In this document: one piece after another, positions 19,270 to 31,289 of the stretch
Position numbering within the stretch: the stretch's first letter is position 1
Layout of the letters: every line of letters begins with the position of its first letter
NCBI GenBank assembly: GCA_026414545.1
Contig: JAOAIU010000058.1
Coordinates: forward strand, 1-41,681
Direction of reading: 5' to 3'
Length of the DNA: 41,681 nt
Origin: Candidatus Saccharicenans sp.
GTDB lineage: Bacteria > Acidobacteriota > Aminicenantia > Aminicenantales > Saccharicenantaceae
Program-made: the position numbers and the translations under genes
Notes under the pieces: generated by a model
Told to the model about the DNA's origin: nothing
Database searches by the model: none
The model's input: only the letters and a program-made list of their open reading frames with translations

Positions 19270-20331
19270 TTAGGAGAGCAACTGGTCGGCAAAGGCAAAC
19301 AGGGCCGGGGTTCCGCCGGTGTGGACGAAGACAATCCTGTCTGAAGCCGAAAAATAACCTTTCTGGGAGAGGTCAAGCAGGCCGATCATAGCCTTGCCGG
19401 TATAAACTGGGTCCAGGACCAGGGCCTCTTTTTGAAGAACTGTGCTTATTATTTTTGAAATTTCCGGGGTAACCCGACCATAGCCCTGGCCCAGATAATC
19501 GTCAAACAGAATAATGTCTCGGTCATCAATATTTATCCTTAAACCCAGAGTCTCAACCAGTTCCCCGGCAATTTTTTTAACCCGAGGGAGAAAGTCCTCT
19601 TTCCTGTCAGAAACGCAGATGCCGACAATTCGGGTACTGAGTCCCAGAGCCTTGGCTCCTACCACCAGCCCGGCCTGGGTGCCGCCCGAACCGGTGGCCA
19701 CAATCACATAATCCGGTTCTCCTGACCCGGCCGTCTGCCTGGCTATTTCAATCATCTCCATTAGGTAAGCCAGAGCACCCAGAGGCTTTCCCATGTTTCC
19801 CCCGGTCATGGAACCGCCGACCGAAACCAGATAGGGATTACGGCCGTTTTTTCTTTCGCCGCTGGCCACTTCTTCGAGTAGCCTGAAGGCCTGTTCCTGG
19901 TCAGGAGATTTACCCCCGGTCTCGGTTTCCACCAGCCTGAGCTCCGCACCCAGCAGCTTTTCTATCAGGATGTTGCCCTGGTCTGGAGTCGACAGTTCAT
20001 AGGTCTTAAACAGGACCAGGATGGACTTCAGCCCGCACCTGCGGGCCGCGGCTGCGGTCTGAAGACACCAGTTCGATTGCAGGCTGCCCCAGGTAATAAT
20101 GGTGTCGGCTCCCTGACTGAGGGCATCGGCCAGTACGAATTCCAGCTTGCGAGATTTGTTTCCGCCAAAAGCCAGACCGGTCAGGTCGTCCCGTTTGACC
20201 ATCATTTCCCGTAAACCGAGCTCTCCCGACAGGTTTTCCAGGCGGTAAAGCGGCGTTGGCAGGCAGGTGAGCCGGACCCGGGGATATTTGTTTATCAATT
20301 TCTCCAGTTGATCCGGACTATAGGTGGTCAT
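19270..20331 (-). CDS. D-cysteine desulfhydrase / ACC deaminase family PLP enzyme
   Basis: This 353-residue fold-type II PLP enzyme has the family start (RLTCLPTPLYRLENLSGELG), the VKRDDLTGLAFGGNKSRKLEF block with likely PLP lysine K59, and WGSLQSNWCLQTAAAARR. It also has the glycine loop ATGSGGTQAGL and the late segment ILDPVYTGKAMIGL in slightly varied form (VLDPVYTGKAMIGL). Members desulfurate D-cysteine to pyruvate, H2S and ammonia, or open 1-aminocyclopropane-1-carboxylate; sequence alone does not separate them. The 245-base region upstream holds a 7-bp hairpin and a palindrome that could be regulatory. Confidence 0.85.
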   Translation of the reverse strand: MTTYSPDQLEKLINKYPRVRLTCLPTPLYRLENLSGELGLREMMVKRDDLTGLAFGGNKSRKLEFVLADALSQGADTIITWGSLQSNWCLQTAAAARRCGLKSILVLFKTYELSTPDQGNILIEKLLGAELRLVETETGGKSPDQEQAFRLLEEVASGERKNGRNPYLVSVGGSMTGGNMGKPLGALAYLMEMIEIARQTAGSGEPDYVIVATGSGGTQAGLVVGAKALGLSTRIVGICVSDRKEDFLPRVKKIAGELVETLGLRINIDDRDIILFDDYLGQGYGRVTPEISKIISTVLQKEALVLDPVYTGKAMIGLLDLSQKGYFSASDRIVFVHTGGTPALFAFADQLLS

Positions 20332-23638: not shown

Positions 23639-24541
23639 TCAAGGCCGGATTCTTGTTGTCTGACCCGCTCCTGTTGCCGAAAGGCTGAAACCATGAGAGA
23701 GGCAGGAGGTCGGACAGACCTGTTCACATTTCAAGCATCTGATACACTGCGAACTGTCTGGATTCTCATATATCCTGATACTTACCGGACAAATCTTCTG
23801 ACAGGCGTCACAGACAATGCATCTCTCCAGGTCGACTTTCATTCTGAAGGCACTGACCCGATTAAAGAAGCCCAGCATCGTCCCCAGAGGGCAGACCGTC
23901 CGACAAAATGGCCTCATGGAAACGGACATCCATGCCAGAAATATAACCAGCAGGCCCAGCTTCCAGGCAAACAGATAACCAAGCTGGGCTCTGATGCCTG
24001 GATCAAGTCCCGAAAGAATCAGACCGGCCTCAAGGGTGCCCGCTGGACAGACCCACTTGCAAAACCAGGGCCAGCCCAGTCCTGAGGCATCCATTACCAG
24101 CAGAGGCAAAAGCCAGACCAGAAAAACCAGGACTATGTACCGGAAATAGGTCAAAAAAGCAGGAATCCGAATTTTTGGCAGCGGGATCTTATAAACCAGC
24201 TCCTGCAGCAGCCCAAAAGGACACAACCAGCCGCAGGGAAGCCTCCCCCCTATTGTTCCCATCAGGGCGATACTTCCCATAACATACAGCCCCAGCTTTT
24301 TCTGGCCGGCAGCCAGGTTGTATCTCAGAGAATTAAGGGAGTTCTGGAGAGCTCCAACCGGGCAGGCGCCTATGGCCGCCGGGCAGGAGTAACAGTTAAG
24401 AGCTGGCAGGCAAAGCCCCTTGGTCCTGGCCTGGCTGATATTTCCTTTCAGGGGAGAAAGAAAATCAAGGTTGAAGCCCAGGGCGGCCGCAATTTGAAAT
24501 ATCCTTCTCTTGCCTTCAGTCTTCAAGCCCGTGATTTTCAT
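23639..24541 (-). CDS. NapH/YccM-type polytopic membrane 4Fe-4S protein
   Basis: This 300-residue inner-membrane protein has five or so hydrophobic segments and many cysteines. An N-terminal motif CLPALNCYSCPAAIGACP is followed by three NapH-like CPxG elements (CGWLCPFG, CKWVCPAG, CRTVCPLG). Two ferredoxin-type sites sit at the C-terminus (CIVCDACQKICP, CIRCLKCEQVCP). Such proteins pass electrons from quinol or a soluble donor across the membrane. The frame opens at 24571, but the ATG at 24541 has GAGGGA 8 bases upstream and starts 11 bases after the CXXC gene stop, so it is preferred. It is third in a tight operon with a periplasmic rhodanese and a 47-residue CXXC protein, suggesting a sulfur or thiol redox role. 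Confidence 0.86.
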   Translation of the reverse strand: MKITGLKTEGKRRIFQIAAALGFNLDFLSPLKGNISQARTKGLCLPALNCYSCPAAIGACPVGALQNSLNSLRYNLAAGQKKLGLYVMGSIALMGTIGGRLPCGWLCPFGLLQELVYKIPLPKIRIPAFLTYFRYIVLVFLVWLLPLLVMDASGLGWPWFCKWVCPAGTLEAGLILSGLDPGIRAQLGYLFAWKLGLLVIFLAWMSVSMRPFCRTVCPLGTMLGFFNRVSAFRMKVDLERCIVCDACQKICPVSIRIYENPDSSQCIRCLKCEQVCPTSCLSHGFSLSATGAGQTTRIRP

Positions 24542-24552
24542 GACTAAGTCCC

Positions 24553-24696
24553 TCAGCCGATGCCGATGCATTCCAGACAGACCGTGACTGCCTTTTGCCA
24601 GACGACACGGAACTCTCCTGCCAGCAATCCCAGGACTATGAAGACAACCGACACCAACAGAAAAGCAAAAAATAGTATCCGTCTTTTTTTAATCAT
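24553..24696 (-). CDS. Small CXXC membrane protein, CD1871A-like family
   Basis: This 47-residue gene is easily missed. It starts MIKKRR, then has one hydrophobic segment (about 7-26), a GE turn (27-28), and ends in KAVTVCLECIGIG, with C40 and C43. The positive-inside rule puts the CXXC end in the periplasm. GGAGG lies 5 bases before the ATG, inside the final codons of the rhodanese gene. The next gene begins 11 bases after the stop. The C-terminal CLECIGIG signature fits the small CD1871A-type CXXC family, which I recall being encoded beside 4Fe-4S membrane proteins; this is from memory, and its function is unknown. A thiol-disulfide or persulfide handover role is inference. Confidence 0.78.
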   Translation of the reverse strand: MIKKRRILFFAFLLVSVVFIVLGLLAGEFRVVWQKAVTVCLECIGIG

Positions 24697-24698
24697 AA

Positions 24699-25604
24699 TT
24701 ACCTCCGGCTGGTTTCAACCGGCAGGTCGTCCCGGTTACTCCACTCGTTGAAACTCCCGTCGTACAATTGTACTCTGGGATAATTTAGAAGATATTTTAG
24801 AGTCAGATAGGTATGGGAAGCCATCAATCCCTGTCCACAGGAAACAATTATGGTCCGGTCGGGGGTTATGCCCATCTCCTTAAGGTTTTCAGCTATCATC
24901 CTGAGGTCTTTCCAGGTTCCGTCCTCCTTCAGAAAAGATGCCCAGAAGATGTTGACCGCACCGGGGATATGTCCATTTCTCTTCCAGTTTCCGCGCTCTC
25001 CTGAGAATAGTTCAGCCGACCGGACATCGAGGAGGACGGTAGTCCGGTGGTCGCGATTTCTGACCTGGTCCAGAAGCACCCGGACCGATTCGTCGGGATT
25101 GACTTTCTGGCCATAACTTTTTCGGCTCAATACCGGATAATCGCGCGACACCGGCCTGTTTTCGCTCTTCCAGCGGTTAAAACCGCCGTCAAGAATGGCC
25201 CAGCTCGAATGCCGGATATAATCAAGGGCCCAGGCCAGATAGGTTGCGCGGTAATTATTGATTTCGGTGTAGATGATTATGGTTGTCTTGTGATCGATGC
25301 CCATTTCTTCCAGCAACCTAGTCAGGATTTCGGCTGGAATGAGACGCCCTGGGACTCCGTTCTGTGGCCAGCGCAAGACAGTCTCATCCAGGTAAACGGC
25401 TCCCGGGATATGCCCAGACCAGTAGTCTCTTATATCAGCTCTCATATCTATGACCCTGAGATTGGGCAGGTTGAGGTTGGCCTGCAGCCATTCTCCCGAT
25501 ATCAGGCGACGGTCCGGACTTTGAGCCCGGAGAACATAACAAAATGCTAAGCTCATGATAAACAGAGCTGCCACCCGAATAGCTTGTTCAGTTCTTCTTT
25601 TCAT
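24699..25604 (-). CDS. Exported tandem-domain rhodanese (thiosulfate/3-mercaptopyruvate sulfurtransferase-like)
   Basis: This 301-residue protein has a Sec signal (VAALFIMSLAFCYVLRAQ) and two rhodanese domains. The N-terminal domain (about 33-155) has the fold motifs RVIDMR and GHIPGAVYLD but no cysteine at the active loop (IYTEINNYRA). The C-terminal domain (about 165-300) carries LLDVRS, GHIPGAVNIFW and the catalytic loop CGQGLMAS with Cys256. It would form a persulfide and pass sulfane sulfur to an acceptor, here in the periplasm. The small CXXC gene starts 2 bases after its stop and uses a Shine-Dalgarno inside it, so the two are translationally linked. The GH127 gene lies 69 bases upstream on the same strand. 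Confidence 0.88.
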   Translation of the reverse strand: MKRRTEQAIRVAALFIMSLAFCYVLRAQSPDRRLISGEWLQANLNLPNLRVIDMRADIRDYWSGHIPGAVYLDETVLRWPQNGVPGRLIPAEILTRLLEEMGIDHKTTIIIYTEINNYRATYLAWALDYIRHSSWAILDGGFNRWKSENRPVSRDYPVLSRKSYGQKVNPDESVRVLLDQVRNRDHRTTVLLDVRSAELFSGERGNWKRNGHIPGAVNIFWASFLKEDGTWKDLRMIAENLKEMGITPDRTIIVSCGQGLMASHTYLTLKYLLNYPRVQLYDGSFNEWSNRDDLPVETSRR

Positions 25605-29174: not shown

Positions 29175-31289
29175 TTGATCGATAATCGCCTTTATAAACA
29201 TCCCATTCTGCCAGTGGAGGACAAACCTCTATTCACATTTTATTTTCGCGAGCAGGAGCTGAAAGCCCGGGAAGGAGAAACCATAGCCTCTGCCCTCTTT
29301 GCCAACGGAATCCGGATTTTCAGCTTCCATCACAAAGATGGCGCGCCACAGGGAATTTTTTGCGCTAACGGTCAGTGCGCTCAGTGCCTGGTTCTGGCTG
29401 ACGGCTTCCCGGTGAAATCCTGCATGGAATTGATTAAACCTGGAATGAAAATTGAGCCGGTGGTTGGCCTGCCCCATCTTCCTCCGGTCGACCCGGAAAA
29501 GCCTATGGATTTCAAACCAGTGGAAGAACTTGAGGTGTCGGTGTTGATTATCGGTGGCGGTCCGGCCGGACTGTCAGCAGCCATAGAGCTCGGCCAGCGC
29601 GGCGTGGACTGCCTGCTGGTGGATGATAAACATCGACTGGGTGGCAAATTGGTTCTCCAGACCCATCGTTTCTTCGGTTCGGTGGAGGCGGTCTATGCCG
29701 GGACCAGGGGCATCGATATCGCCACCAGGCTGGAAAACGAGGTTCGGCAATATCCTGGAGTAACAATCTGGCTGCAGAGCACGGCCCTGGCCGTTTTTAG
29801 CGATAAGAAAGTAGGGATTCTCAAAGAGAACAGGAAATATGCTCTGGTCAAACCAAAAATCCTGCTGGTAGCAGCCGGGGCCAGGGAAAAGTCGCTGGCC
29901 TTCCCGGGAAATGACCTGCCTGGGGTTTACGGAGCGGGTGCCTTCCAGACTCTGGTCAATCGCGACCTGGTCAAACCTACCGAAGAGTTATTCATAGTCG
30001 GCGGCGGGAATGTTGGCCTGATCGCTGGCTACCATGCTCTTCAGGCGGGAATCAAGGTGGTGGCCCTGGTTGAAGTCATGCCCGAAGTCGGCGGTTACAA
30101 GGTTCACAAAGATAAGCTGGCCAGGCTGGGGGTTCCCATTCTCACTTCTCATACCATTCTGAGCGCCAACGGGAAAGATAGCGTTGAATCGGTGACCATA
30201 GCCAGGGTGGACGATAAATTCCATCCCGTTCCCGGCACGGAAAGAACGCTGAGGTGCGATACCGTCTTAATCGCTGTCGGGCTTGATCCTGTCAACGAGT
30301 TTTATCTTAAGGCCAGGGAATTCGGTCTTCCGGTATATGCCGCCGGCGATGCCGAGGAAATCGCCGAGGCTTCGGCGGCCATTTTTTCCGGCAAGATCCG
30401 CGGTCTGGAGATTGCCAGAGAGCTGGGTGTTTACCAGGACGAAATTCCTCAGGACTGGTACCGGACAGCTGAGATCCTGAAATCCAGACCGGGCCGGACT
30501 TACCCCGAGTATTTTCTGGAAAAAGAAGAGGGGGTTTTCCCGGTAATCCACTGTCTCCAGGAGATCCCCTGCGACCCCTGCTCGGCCGTCTGTCCGAGAA
30601 AGCTGATCGAGGTGGACCGGACCGATGTCCGTAAACTGCCCGTCTATTACGAAGAAAAAGAAGGCAAGGGATGCAGCGGCTGCGAAAGGTGCGTGGTTTT
30701 CTGCCCCGGGTTGGCCATCACCCTCGTCGATTACCGCCGAAATCCAGAATTTCCCGAGGTAACTATTCCCTTTGAGTTCTTGAAAGAAATAATAAATCCT
30801 GGAGATGAAATTTCAGTGGTAGATATTGCTGGACAGGAACTGGCCAGGAGCCGGGTGACCTCGGTTAAATCGATTAAGGGCAACGACCGGACAATTCTGG
30901 TTAAGGTCCAGGTTCCCAAGGCCGTGGCCAAGAAGGTCAGCGGTTTGAAACTCCAGCCAGAAATCCCTGAAACGGCTGAAAAATACCTGGAAAGGATTTC
31001 GGACGAGGCCATCATCTGCCGTTGCGAAAGAGTTACAGCCGGAGAAATCCGAAAGCTGATCCGCGAAGGCATCAGAGATATTAATGAAATCAAGACCATA
31101 ACCAGGGCCGGCATGGGACCTTGCGGAGCCAAGACCTGCACTCCGCTGGTGCACCGGCTGTTCCGGGAGGAAGGAGTTCCTGAAAGTGAAATCGTGGACC
31201 AACCCAAACGGCCCCTGTTCATAGAAGTGCCGCTGGGATTGTTTGCCGGTCTGGAAAAGGGAAAGGAGTCCGAGCATGAGCCGCGCTGA
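29175..31289 (+). CDS. Fe-S/FAD dehydrogenase alpha subunit (SoxA/HcnAB/hydroxyproline dehydrogenase-like) with extra 4Fe-4S domain
   Basis: This 704-residue oxidoreductase begins at TTG, with AAGGAG 6 bases upstream. Domains in order: a 2Fe-2S ferredoxin-like domain (C63, C68, C71, C83); an FAD/NAD(P) disulfide-reductase-like module starting at VLIIGGGPAGLSAA (about 123), with a second dinucleotide motif FIVGGGNVGLIAG. A 4Fe-4S segment (HCLQEIPCDPCSAVCP and CSGCERCVVFCPG) and a C-terminal BFD-like 2Fe-2S domain (CRCERV, GPCGAKTC) complete it. Relatives are alpha subunits of sarcosine, D-hydroxyproline, proline or glycine dehydrogenases. The overlapping next gene supplies the DAO-type beta subunit. 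The extra 4Fe-4S domain suggests electrons go to ferredoxin rather than oxygen; that is inference. Substrate undetermined. Confidence 0.85.
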   Translation: MIDNRLYKHPILPVEDKPLFTFYFREQELKAREGETIASALFANGIRIFSFHHKDGAPQGIFCANGQCAQCLVLADGFPVKSCMELIKPGMKIEPVVGLPHLPPVDPEKPMDFKPVEELEVSVLIIGGGPAGLSAAIELGQRGVDCLLVDDKHRLGGKLVLQTHRFFGSVEAVYAGTRGIDIATRLENEVRQYPGVTIWLQSTALAVFSDKKVGILKENRKYALVKPKILLVAAGAREKSLAFPGNDLPGVYGAGAFQTLVNRDLVKPTEELFIVGGGNVGLIAGYHALQAGIKVVALVEVMPEVGGYKVHKDKLARLGVPILTSHTILSANGKDSVESVTIARVDDKFHPVPGTERTLRCDTVLIAVGLDPVNEFYLKAREFGLPVYAAGDAEEIAEASAAIFSGKIRGLEIARELGVYQDEIPQDWYRTAEILKSRPGRTYPEYFLEKEEGVFPVIHCLQEIPCDPCSAVCPRKLIEVDRTDVRKLPVYYEEKEGKGCSGCERCVVFCPGLAITLVDYRRNPEFPEVTIPFEFLKEIINPGDEISVVDIAGQELARSRVTSVKSIKGNDRTILVKVQVPKAVAKKVSGLKLQPEIPETAEKYLERISDEAIICRCERVTAGEIRKLIREGIRDINEIKTITRAGMGPCGAKTCTPLVHRLFREEGVPESEIVDQPKRPLFIEVPLGLFAGLEKGKESEHEPR

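Follow-up and report, generated by a model that had tools for sequence, protein, structure and literature searches.

The 41,681-nucleotide contig JAOAIU010000058.1 of the acidobacteriotal genome Candidatus Saccharicenans sp. (GCA_026414545.1), referred to here as the window, carries on its minus strand a compact unit of three genes. They encode an exported rhodanese, a 47-residue protein of the CD1871A family that ends in a CXXC motif, and a polytopic membrane protein rich in iron-sulfur (Fe-S) motifs and distantly similar to NapH. An initial annotation of this DNA had proposed that the small CXXC protein works between the other two in a periplasmic sulfur redox relay. Here, we describe the unit and follow its members across bacterial genomes. 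The pairing of the CD1871A protein with the NapH-like Fe-S protein is genuine and conserved very widely, and the two together probably carry electrons outward across the membrane to reduce thiols. The third gene of the window's unit is a rhodanese and not the TlpA-type thioredoxin found beside most other pairs, and TlpA-type genes are unlinked in the window genome.

The three-gene unit

The features of the unit are collected in Table 1. The three reading frames are separated by gaps of 2 bases (rhodanese and small gene) and 11 bases (small gene and Fe-S gene), and each ribosome-binding site lies in, or at the end of, the preceding gene; this close packing, as first described, was confirmed throughout. 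The Fe-S gene has an alternative in-frame ATG at 24571, which would overlap the small gene. In comparisons with two relatives, raw synonymous codon differences exceed replacement differences in all three genes (only 12:9 and 12:10 for the small gene), and the same gene order is repeated across the window's genus; the unit is therefore not a chance arrangement.

Table 1. Features of the CD1871A unit and the evidence for each
Feature	Position	Strand	Evidence
Exported tandem rhodanese, thiosulfate/3-mercaptopyruvate sulfurtransferase type, 301 aa	24699..25604	-	Pfam PF00581, 6.5e-32
Catalytic Cys256 codon, CGQGLMAS loop	24837..24839	-	Kept in 16/16 rhodaneses of the window's family
GGAGG ribosome-binding site of the small gene, within the last rhodanese codons, 5 bases 5' of the small gene	24702..24706	-	Sequence, by eye
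CD1871A-family protein, 47 aa, one membrane span, C-terminal CLECIGIG	24553..24696	-	NF040920, 58.2 bits (cut-off 32)
CXXC motif, C40-L-E-C43	24568..24579	-	Sequence; first Cys is an in-frame TGA in homologue L179
GAGGGA ribosome-binding site of the Fe-S gene, overlapping the TGA stop of the small gene, 7 bases 5' of the Fe-S ATG	24549..24554	-	Sequence, by eye
NapH-like polytopic Fe-S protein, 300 aa	23639..24541	-	TIGR02163, 50.3 bits (cut-off 213.05); Fer4_5 and Fer4 Pfam matches
N-terminal four-Cys cluster C44/C50/C53/C60 (C-x5-C-x2-C-x6-C), outside the NapH match	24359..24412	-	191-192/192 rows
CxxxC element 1 (C103, C107)	24221..24235	-	192/192 rows
CxxxC element 2 (C161, C165)	24047..24061	-	192/192 rows
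CxxxC element 3 (C213, C217)	23891..23905	-	192/192 rows
Two ferredoxin motifs (C241-C251, C266-C276)	23714..23821	-	190-191/192 rows, remainder gaps; Pfam Fer4

The rhodanese has tandem rhodanese domains with the catalytic cysteine in the second, and it matches the rhodanese of PDB entry 1uar with an E value of 1.5e-45; the NCBIfam MST model NF008557 scores 137.2 bits, under its cut-off of 250. Its N-terminus is signal-like (by eye), as expected for the exported protein first proposed, and it contains just two cysteines, at positions 22 and 256. The 16 rhodaneses in which Cys256 was compared include that of the window and one truncated at a contig end.

The small protein was correctly recognized as a one-span protein ending in CXXC. 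Because it scores above the cut-off of NF040920, it is already catalogued, under a model name that carries no function. The consensus of 129 family members (one span and a C-terminal CxECIGxG) is matched by the window protein, the cysteines, isoleucine and glycine of this motif being part of the search pattern and hence not independent.

The Fe-S protein carries the motifs originally noted: three CxxxCP elements, two ferredoxin motifs and an N-terminal cysteine cluster. Their 18 cysteines are near-invariant. Each is kept in 190-192 of 192 rows in an alignment without a cysteine filter (191 frames plus the window sequence, near-copies included), the exceptions being gaps and one tryptophan, and all are invariant in a 61-sequence alignment (61 of 97 dissimilar rows, chosen by a pattern for three N-terminal cysteines). 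The AlphaFold model has a mean predicted local distance difference test score (pLDDT) of 91.5 and a predicted template modelling score (pTM) of 0.86. No solved relative of the membrane core was found: sequence matches covered only soluble ferredoxin domains, and there was no fold match at E <=0.001.

Partners of CD1871A in other bacteria

A pattern scan of GTDB contigs, which required the CD1871A motif, gave at least 119 loci, of which one (L102) was dropped as a chance match with stops directly before the motif. Among the matches listed for the remaining 118 loci, a profile search placed a Fe-S gene on the same strand within about 2.5 kb of the CD1871A gene at 115, in almost every case directly downstream and in three of the 115 upstream. 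This number is made up of 107 loci that passed a position filter, five in which the match starts further upstream within the small gene, and the three upstream cases, the last eight having been added on reading the output; one gene intervenes in two of the upstream cases (L054 and L094). The loci without a Fe-S gene were kept in the denominator: L074 (none in the frames), L088 (ends 99 bases downstream) and L109 (a 9-residue chance match). The second regular companion, among the same matches, is a TlpA-type thioredoxin gene, found no more than 3 kb away in the same orientation, on either side of the pair, at 97 of the 118 loci. The titles of 80 loci name mostly Bacillota, and also Coriobacteriia, Spirochaetota, Synergistota, Desulfobacterota and 'Proteobacteria'.

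A second sample, 196 genomes from the class to which an Anaerosphaera genome belongs (here called Clostridia), gave the same picture. The family occurs in 32 of them, and neighbours were counted for 28 of the 32 hits, the other four genomes being already among the loci above (L042, L059, L103 and L105). Within 3.5 kb, a Fe-S gene is present at 27 of the 28 loci and a TlpA gene at 23; the single locus without a Fe-S gene is a CD1871A match under the family cut-off.

The rhodanese behaves differently. A search of these loci, many of them ending at 8 kb or at a contig end, with a rhodanese profile hidden Markov model (HMM) found the window-type protein at none of the 118, again among the matches listed, and at none of the 28 Clostridia loci within 3.5 kb. 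The expectation that all three families would be linked across phyla was thus not supported.

All 18 linked TlpA proteins that were scanned against Pfam match both Redoxin and AhpC-TSA. The methionine sulfoxide reductases MsrA and MsrB were considered as clients and set aside, a motif scan of the neighbours having given a single MsrB-like match.

Evidence for thiol chemistry

Two natural fusions join the Fe-S protein and TlpA in one chain (L072 and L198), a further hydrophobic stretch, seen by eye, leading into the TlpA domain. Beside the fusion gene of L198, the CD1871A motif ends a 299-residue frame that resembles a membrane protein (L198:4034-4930, minus strand).

In-frame TGA codons mark the active sites of both thiol partners. 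In four linked TlpA genes, all downstream of the Fe-S gene (L041, L043, L089 and L103), the sole interruption is a TGA at the first cysteine of the CxxC motif, giving UxxC. In one CD1871A gene, L179:4425-4535 (G448:C17:29424-29534), a TGA replaces the first cysteine of the CXXC motif (V-U-LECIGIG), and an intact Fe-S gene follows. These codons probably specify selenocysteine, and the L179 product is, as one case, probably a new small selenoprotein of about 48 residues. The selenocysteine elongation factor SelB scores above its cut-off in all five genomes with TGA forms and below it in G000, G224, G327 and G410, and a hairpin is predicted after each TGA in folding without a shuffle control.

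Selenocysteine at the attacking position fits a dithiol reductant and is harder to reconcile with a purely structural cysteine. This bears on the possibility that CD1871A serves as a structural subunit, its two cysteines completing or forming an Fe-S cluster in the partner protein, while the rhodanese supplies sulfur for cluster repair. The near-obligate pairing with the Fe-S gene among the matches listed would suit such a subunit, and in vitro, rhodaneses are able to restore Fe-S clusters. The Fe-S protein, however, has 18 conserved cysteines of its own, and the one selenocysteine form together with the TlpA neighbours indicates dithiol chemistry, so that we regard a structural role as unlikely. 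The thiol-redox role first suggested for the CXXC motif agrees with the same two observations.

The motif also appears to lie on the appropriate side of the membrane. The flank N-terminal to the span is more positive than the C-terminal tail in 114 of 129 CD1871A proteins (the reverse in 5, ties in 10); because this bias indicates an N-in/C-out orientation, the CXXC is predicted to face outward. Signal- or lipoprotein-like starts were seen by eye in the rhodanese and in the TlpA proteins read, so that the CXXC and the rhodanese would share one side, in line with the topology on which the first proposal depended. If TlpA is outside, the hydrophobic stretch between the two domains in the fusions would place the ferredoxin domains inside.

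Shortage of DsbD/CcdA and the direction of electron flow

In a sample of 297 genomes of the window's phylum, CD1871A occurs in 12, of which 11 belong to the window's family and one to its order. The membrane domain DsbD_TM (PF02683) is present in 276 of the 297 genomes: in 5 of the 12 with CD1871A and in 271 of the 285 without it. Of the 19 genomes in the window's genus, one has it, and PF02683 had no match in the window genome (93% complete) or in a Pfam scan of the three unit proteins. Among the Clostridia, 9 of the 32 CD1871A genomes have DsbD_TM, compared with 89 of the 164 others. Fisher tests that ignore kinship give 2e-6 for the phylum and 0.011 for the Clostridia, with a pooled odds ratio of 4.6.

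The window's genus nevertheless exports a thioredoxin-like protein. All 11 genomes tested, of 19, encode an unlinked TlpA-type protein with a WCPPC motif and a signal- or lipoprotein-like start. Exported TlpA in the absence of DsbD/CcdA needs some reductant, and the CD1871A/Fe-S pair is the best candidate found; it possibly stands in for DsbD/CcdA. In two places (L257, at G000:C18:6000-17000, and L258), the only loci at which this adjacency was read, the TlpA-type gene directly follows genes resembling 2-oxoacid:ferredoxin oxidoreductase (names by eye).

The flow could also be reversed. In that case, thiols or sulfide outside would be oxidized and the electrons passed inward to quinone or ferredoxin, by NapH-type quinol dehydrogenase chemistry run backwards. 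The distant NapH similarity (TIGR02163) of all 61 scanned Fe-S family members speaks for this, as does the use of rhodaneses in sulfur oxidation. On the contrary, TlpA and selenocysteine-containing TlpA proteins are normally reductants, and the CD1871A family tends toward DsbD-poor genomes; we therefore consider inward flow improbable, the most so of the alternatives weighed here.

The rhodanese form in the window's genus and family

CD1871A is present in 29 of the 34 genomes of the window's family. In the window's genus, the rhodanese is the upstream neighbour at 15 of 18 CD1871A loci (one truncated at a contig end). In another genus of the family (L160), a rhodanese 57% identical is linked as well, and at the CD1871A loci of the remaining genera the neighbour is TlpA. 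The placement of L160 comes from a partial sequence (41% of columns), and we do not claim one swap over two.

The other three loci of the genus (L147, L149 and L151) were at first candidates for loci with different neighbours, a view abandoned when rhodanese remnants were found on reading. The piece at L149 is 50% identical (2e-13) and has lost the catalytic cysteine, that at L151 matches at 6e-6, and that at L147 amounts to a few residues recognized by eye (tblastn E 1.4). CD1871A is intact at all three loci; the Fe-S gene is intact at two and truncated by the contig end at L151. In the tree of the Fe-S protein, the genus forms a single clade (100/99), with the three losses on separate branches. 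In a family-wide search, each genome with a rhodanese gave a single match, in G314 as two pieces on two contigs; G307 and G316 had none elsewhere in the genome, and G315 a fragment alone. The sole match in the TlpA genera of the family is 33% identical (in G300).

These observations show that the exchange of TlpA for a rhodanese is real and old within the genus, yet the rhodanese can drop out where CD1871A persists. Because the linkage is narrow and CD1871A was kept through three losses, the rhodanese appears to be an accessory or a client and not a fixed link of the relay. Of the original idea that the CXXC protein stands between the rhodanese and the Fe-S protein, the pairing with the Fe-S protein and the outward CXXC have held, and the fixed link to the rhodanese has not.

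It may be that the rhodanese is a mere operon neighbour with a sulfur-transfer task of its own, and that the real client of the relay is the unlinked exported TlpA-type protein. We take this seriously as the main alternative, though we find it somewhat doubtful. It is favoured by the WCPPC protein in every genus genome tested, by the 18 of 19 genus genomes without DsbD_TM, and by the loss of the rhodanese in three genomes with CD1871A intact. What stands in its way is that the rhodanese occupies TlpA's position in the same tight unit at the 15 of 18 loci and in the second genus, and that, where present, it is kept as one match per genome with Cys256 conserved.

A proposed mechanism

We favour, at roughly even odds (a probability of about 0.5), the reading that the CD1871A/Fe-S pair is a ferredoxin-fed transmembrane relay for reducing thiols, with the rhodanese as its linked client here and the unlinked TlpA-type protein probably served too. 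Low-potential electrons, probably from ferredoxin, would enter the cytoplasmic C-terminal ferredoxin domains of the Fe-S protein, cross the membrane by way of its CxxxCP clusters, and arrive at CD1871A, whose outward-facing CXXC they would reduce. By thiol-disulfide exchange, CD1871A would then recharge an exported thiol protein. In most bacteria, this client would be the TlpA thioredoxin encoded next door. In the window's genus, the linked client would be the exported rhodanese, the CXXC reducing the Cys256 persulfide with release of sulfide, and the unlinked TlpA-type protein would probably draw on the same relay. Thioredoxin is known to reduce the persulfide of mercaptopyruvate sulfurtransferase. 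In view of the three rhodanese losses, persulfide reduction is the least supported step.

The relay builds on what was observed directly, namely the gene pairing, the motifs, the fusions, the in-frame TGA forms and the shortage of DsbD/CcdA; the outward direction, the ferredoxin donor and the persulfide substrate are inferred.

Several observations weigh against this reading. The rhodanese as client has to be squared with its three losses, and linkage of the window-type protein is confined, in the searched set, to the window's genus and one related genus. A thiamine-binding-type gene replaces the usual neighbour at three Desulfobacterota/Proteobacteria loci (L039, L052 and L133). The selenocysteine form of CD1871A is a single case that could be a sequencing error; its hairpin is weak and varies with the folded length, and a TlpA gene is missing from its 3.5-kb neighbourhood. 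The genome G209 has SelB above the cut-off despite an ordinary WCxxC TlpA. The N-terminal cysteine loop of the Fe-S protein has a net positive charge, an ambiguous signal that lends no support to an outside position. In the phylum sample, all seven genomes that have CD1871A but lack DsbD_TM belong to one family, and 10 of 35 CD1871A genomes elsewhere (a hand-picked part of the 118 loci) have DsbD_TM; with these and the 9 of 32 in the Clostridia, replacement of DsbD/CcdA is a tendency and not strict.

At the three loci with the thiamine-binding-type gene, this upstream neighbour stands in TlpA's frequent position; PF01910 was scanned in L039 alone, and the other two genes cluster with that of L039.

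Neighbouring genes in the window

Three further genes of the window are of note. The gene at 19270-20331 scores 309 bits with the D-cysteate sulfo-lyase (CuyA) model, short of the 450 bits required, and also matches models of D-cysteine desulfhydrase; its product is a possible source of sulfite or sulfide, and five of the six genus loci compared have a homologue close to the unit. The 537-residue protein encoded at 20577-22190 matches sulfoquinovose isomerase weakly (33 bits), and all six loci have a homologue of it near the unit. At 29175-31289, a 704-residue protein combines 2Fe-2S, FAD/NAD, 4Fe-4S and BFD-like domains and resembles the alpha subunit of sarcosine oxidase.

Relation to known systems

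The genus exports thioredoxin-like proteins while no DsbD/CcdA is seen in 18 of its 19 genomes, and how these proteins are kept reduced is a question that applies to many Clostridia too. The CD1871A/Fe-S pair is a small, concrete and testable candidate for the reductant, and ferredoxin would be its source of electrons. The exchange of partners in the rhodanese form arose naturally and raises the question of whether the relay can also reduce extracytoplasmic protein persulfides.

The closest described system is a three-gene operon of gut Clostridia, called novel in a 2025 preprint (PMC12637426), that comprises a TlpA disulfide reductase, a CxxC protein between, and a 4Fe-4S protein with 3-4 spans. 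By this description, it has the same small protein and Fe-S partner as the window, where CD1871A and the Fe-S gene are likewise adjacent and a rhodanese takes the place of TlpA; from the description, we infer that the CxxC protein of the preprint is CD1871A. The preprint suggests a role in redox homeostasis, possibly the reduction of targets outside the cell, and links the stool abundance of the Clostridia form to immunotherapy side effects, which would make the function of the operon of wider use. Its main text contains no mention of a rhodanese, sulfurtransferase, selenocysteine, selenoprotein, CcdA or DsbD. The earlier view that the unit is under-described was thus wrong in part: the small protein has its NCBIfam model, and the trio with TlpA is in this preprint. 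Among open-licence PMC papers, nothing was found on the rhodanese form, on the CD1871A name or on the letters of its motif.

Membrane cores with CxxxCP elements and two ferredoxin motifs are features of NapH and MauN. The window Fe-S protein shares both, its ferredoxin motifs being C-terminal. Unlike these proteins, it reaches only 50 of the 213 bits set for NapH and has a four-cysteine N-terminal cluster outside the match, and there are no nap genes among the scanned neighbours of the unit. The rhodanese-like ExtH (NF040901), from selenite/tellurite reduction operons, matches the window rhodanese at 58.8 bits, far under the cut-off of 200.

Two selenoproteins listed in the available part of PMC13188914 are also relevant. 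One is a TlpA selenoprotein with another motif (UGC). The other, TsoB, resembles a rhodanese/DsbD fusion and is, by name, a precedent for a rhodanese domain joined to a transmembrane thiol reductase; it differs in its DsbD-type membrane part, its single fused chain and its being a selenoprotein, and no CD1871A or NapH-like part is named there.

The functional parallel lies with CcdA and DsbD. According to PMC12288474, CcdA feeds an exported thioredoxin and is found beside exported thioredoxin genes. Reducing power passes from the cytoplasm to exported thioredoxin-like proteins in these systems, and we propose the same for the window pair. The differences are that the pair lacks DsbD_TM, that Fe-S clusters and a one-span CXXC protein would cross the membrane, and that the donor is probably ferredoxin, whereas CcdA and DsbD use thioredoxin. 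Tentatively, and with somewhat less confidence than in the relay itself, we suggest that the pair could be a separate class of ferredoxin-driven transmembrane thiol reductase, an alternative to DsbD/CcdA whose exchangeable outer client would be TlpA, its selenocysteine form or, in the window's genus, a rhodanese, the relay in the last case acting as an extracytoplasmic sulfane-sulfur reductase.

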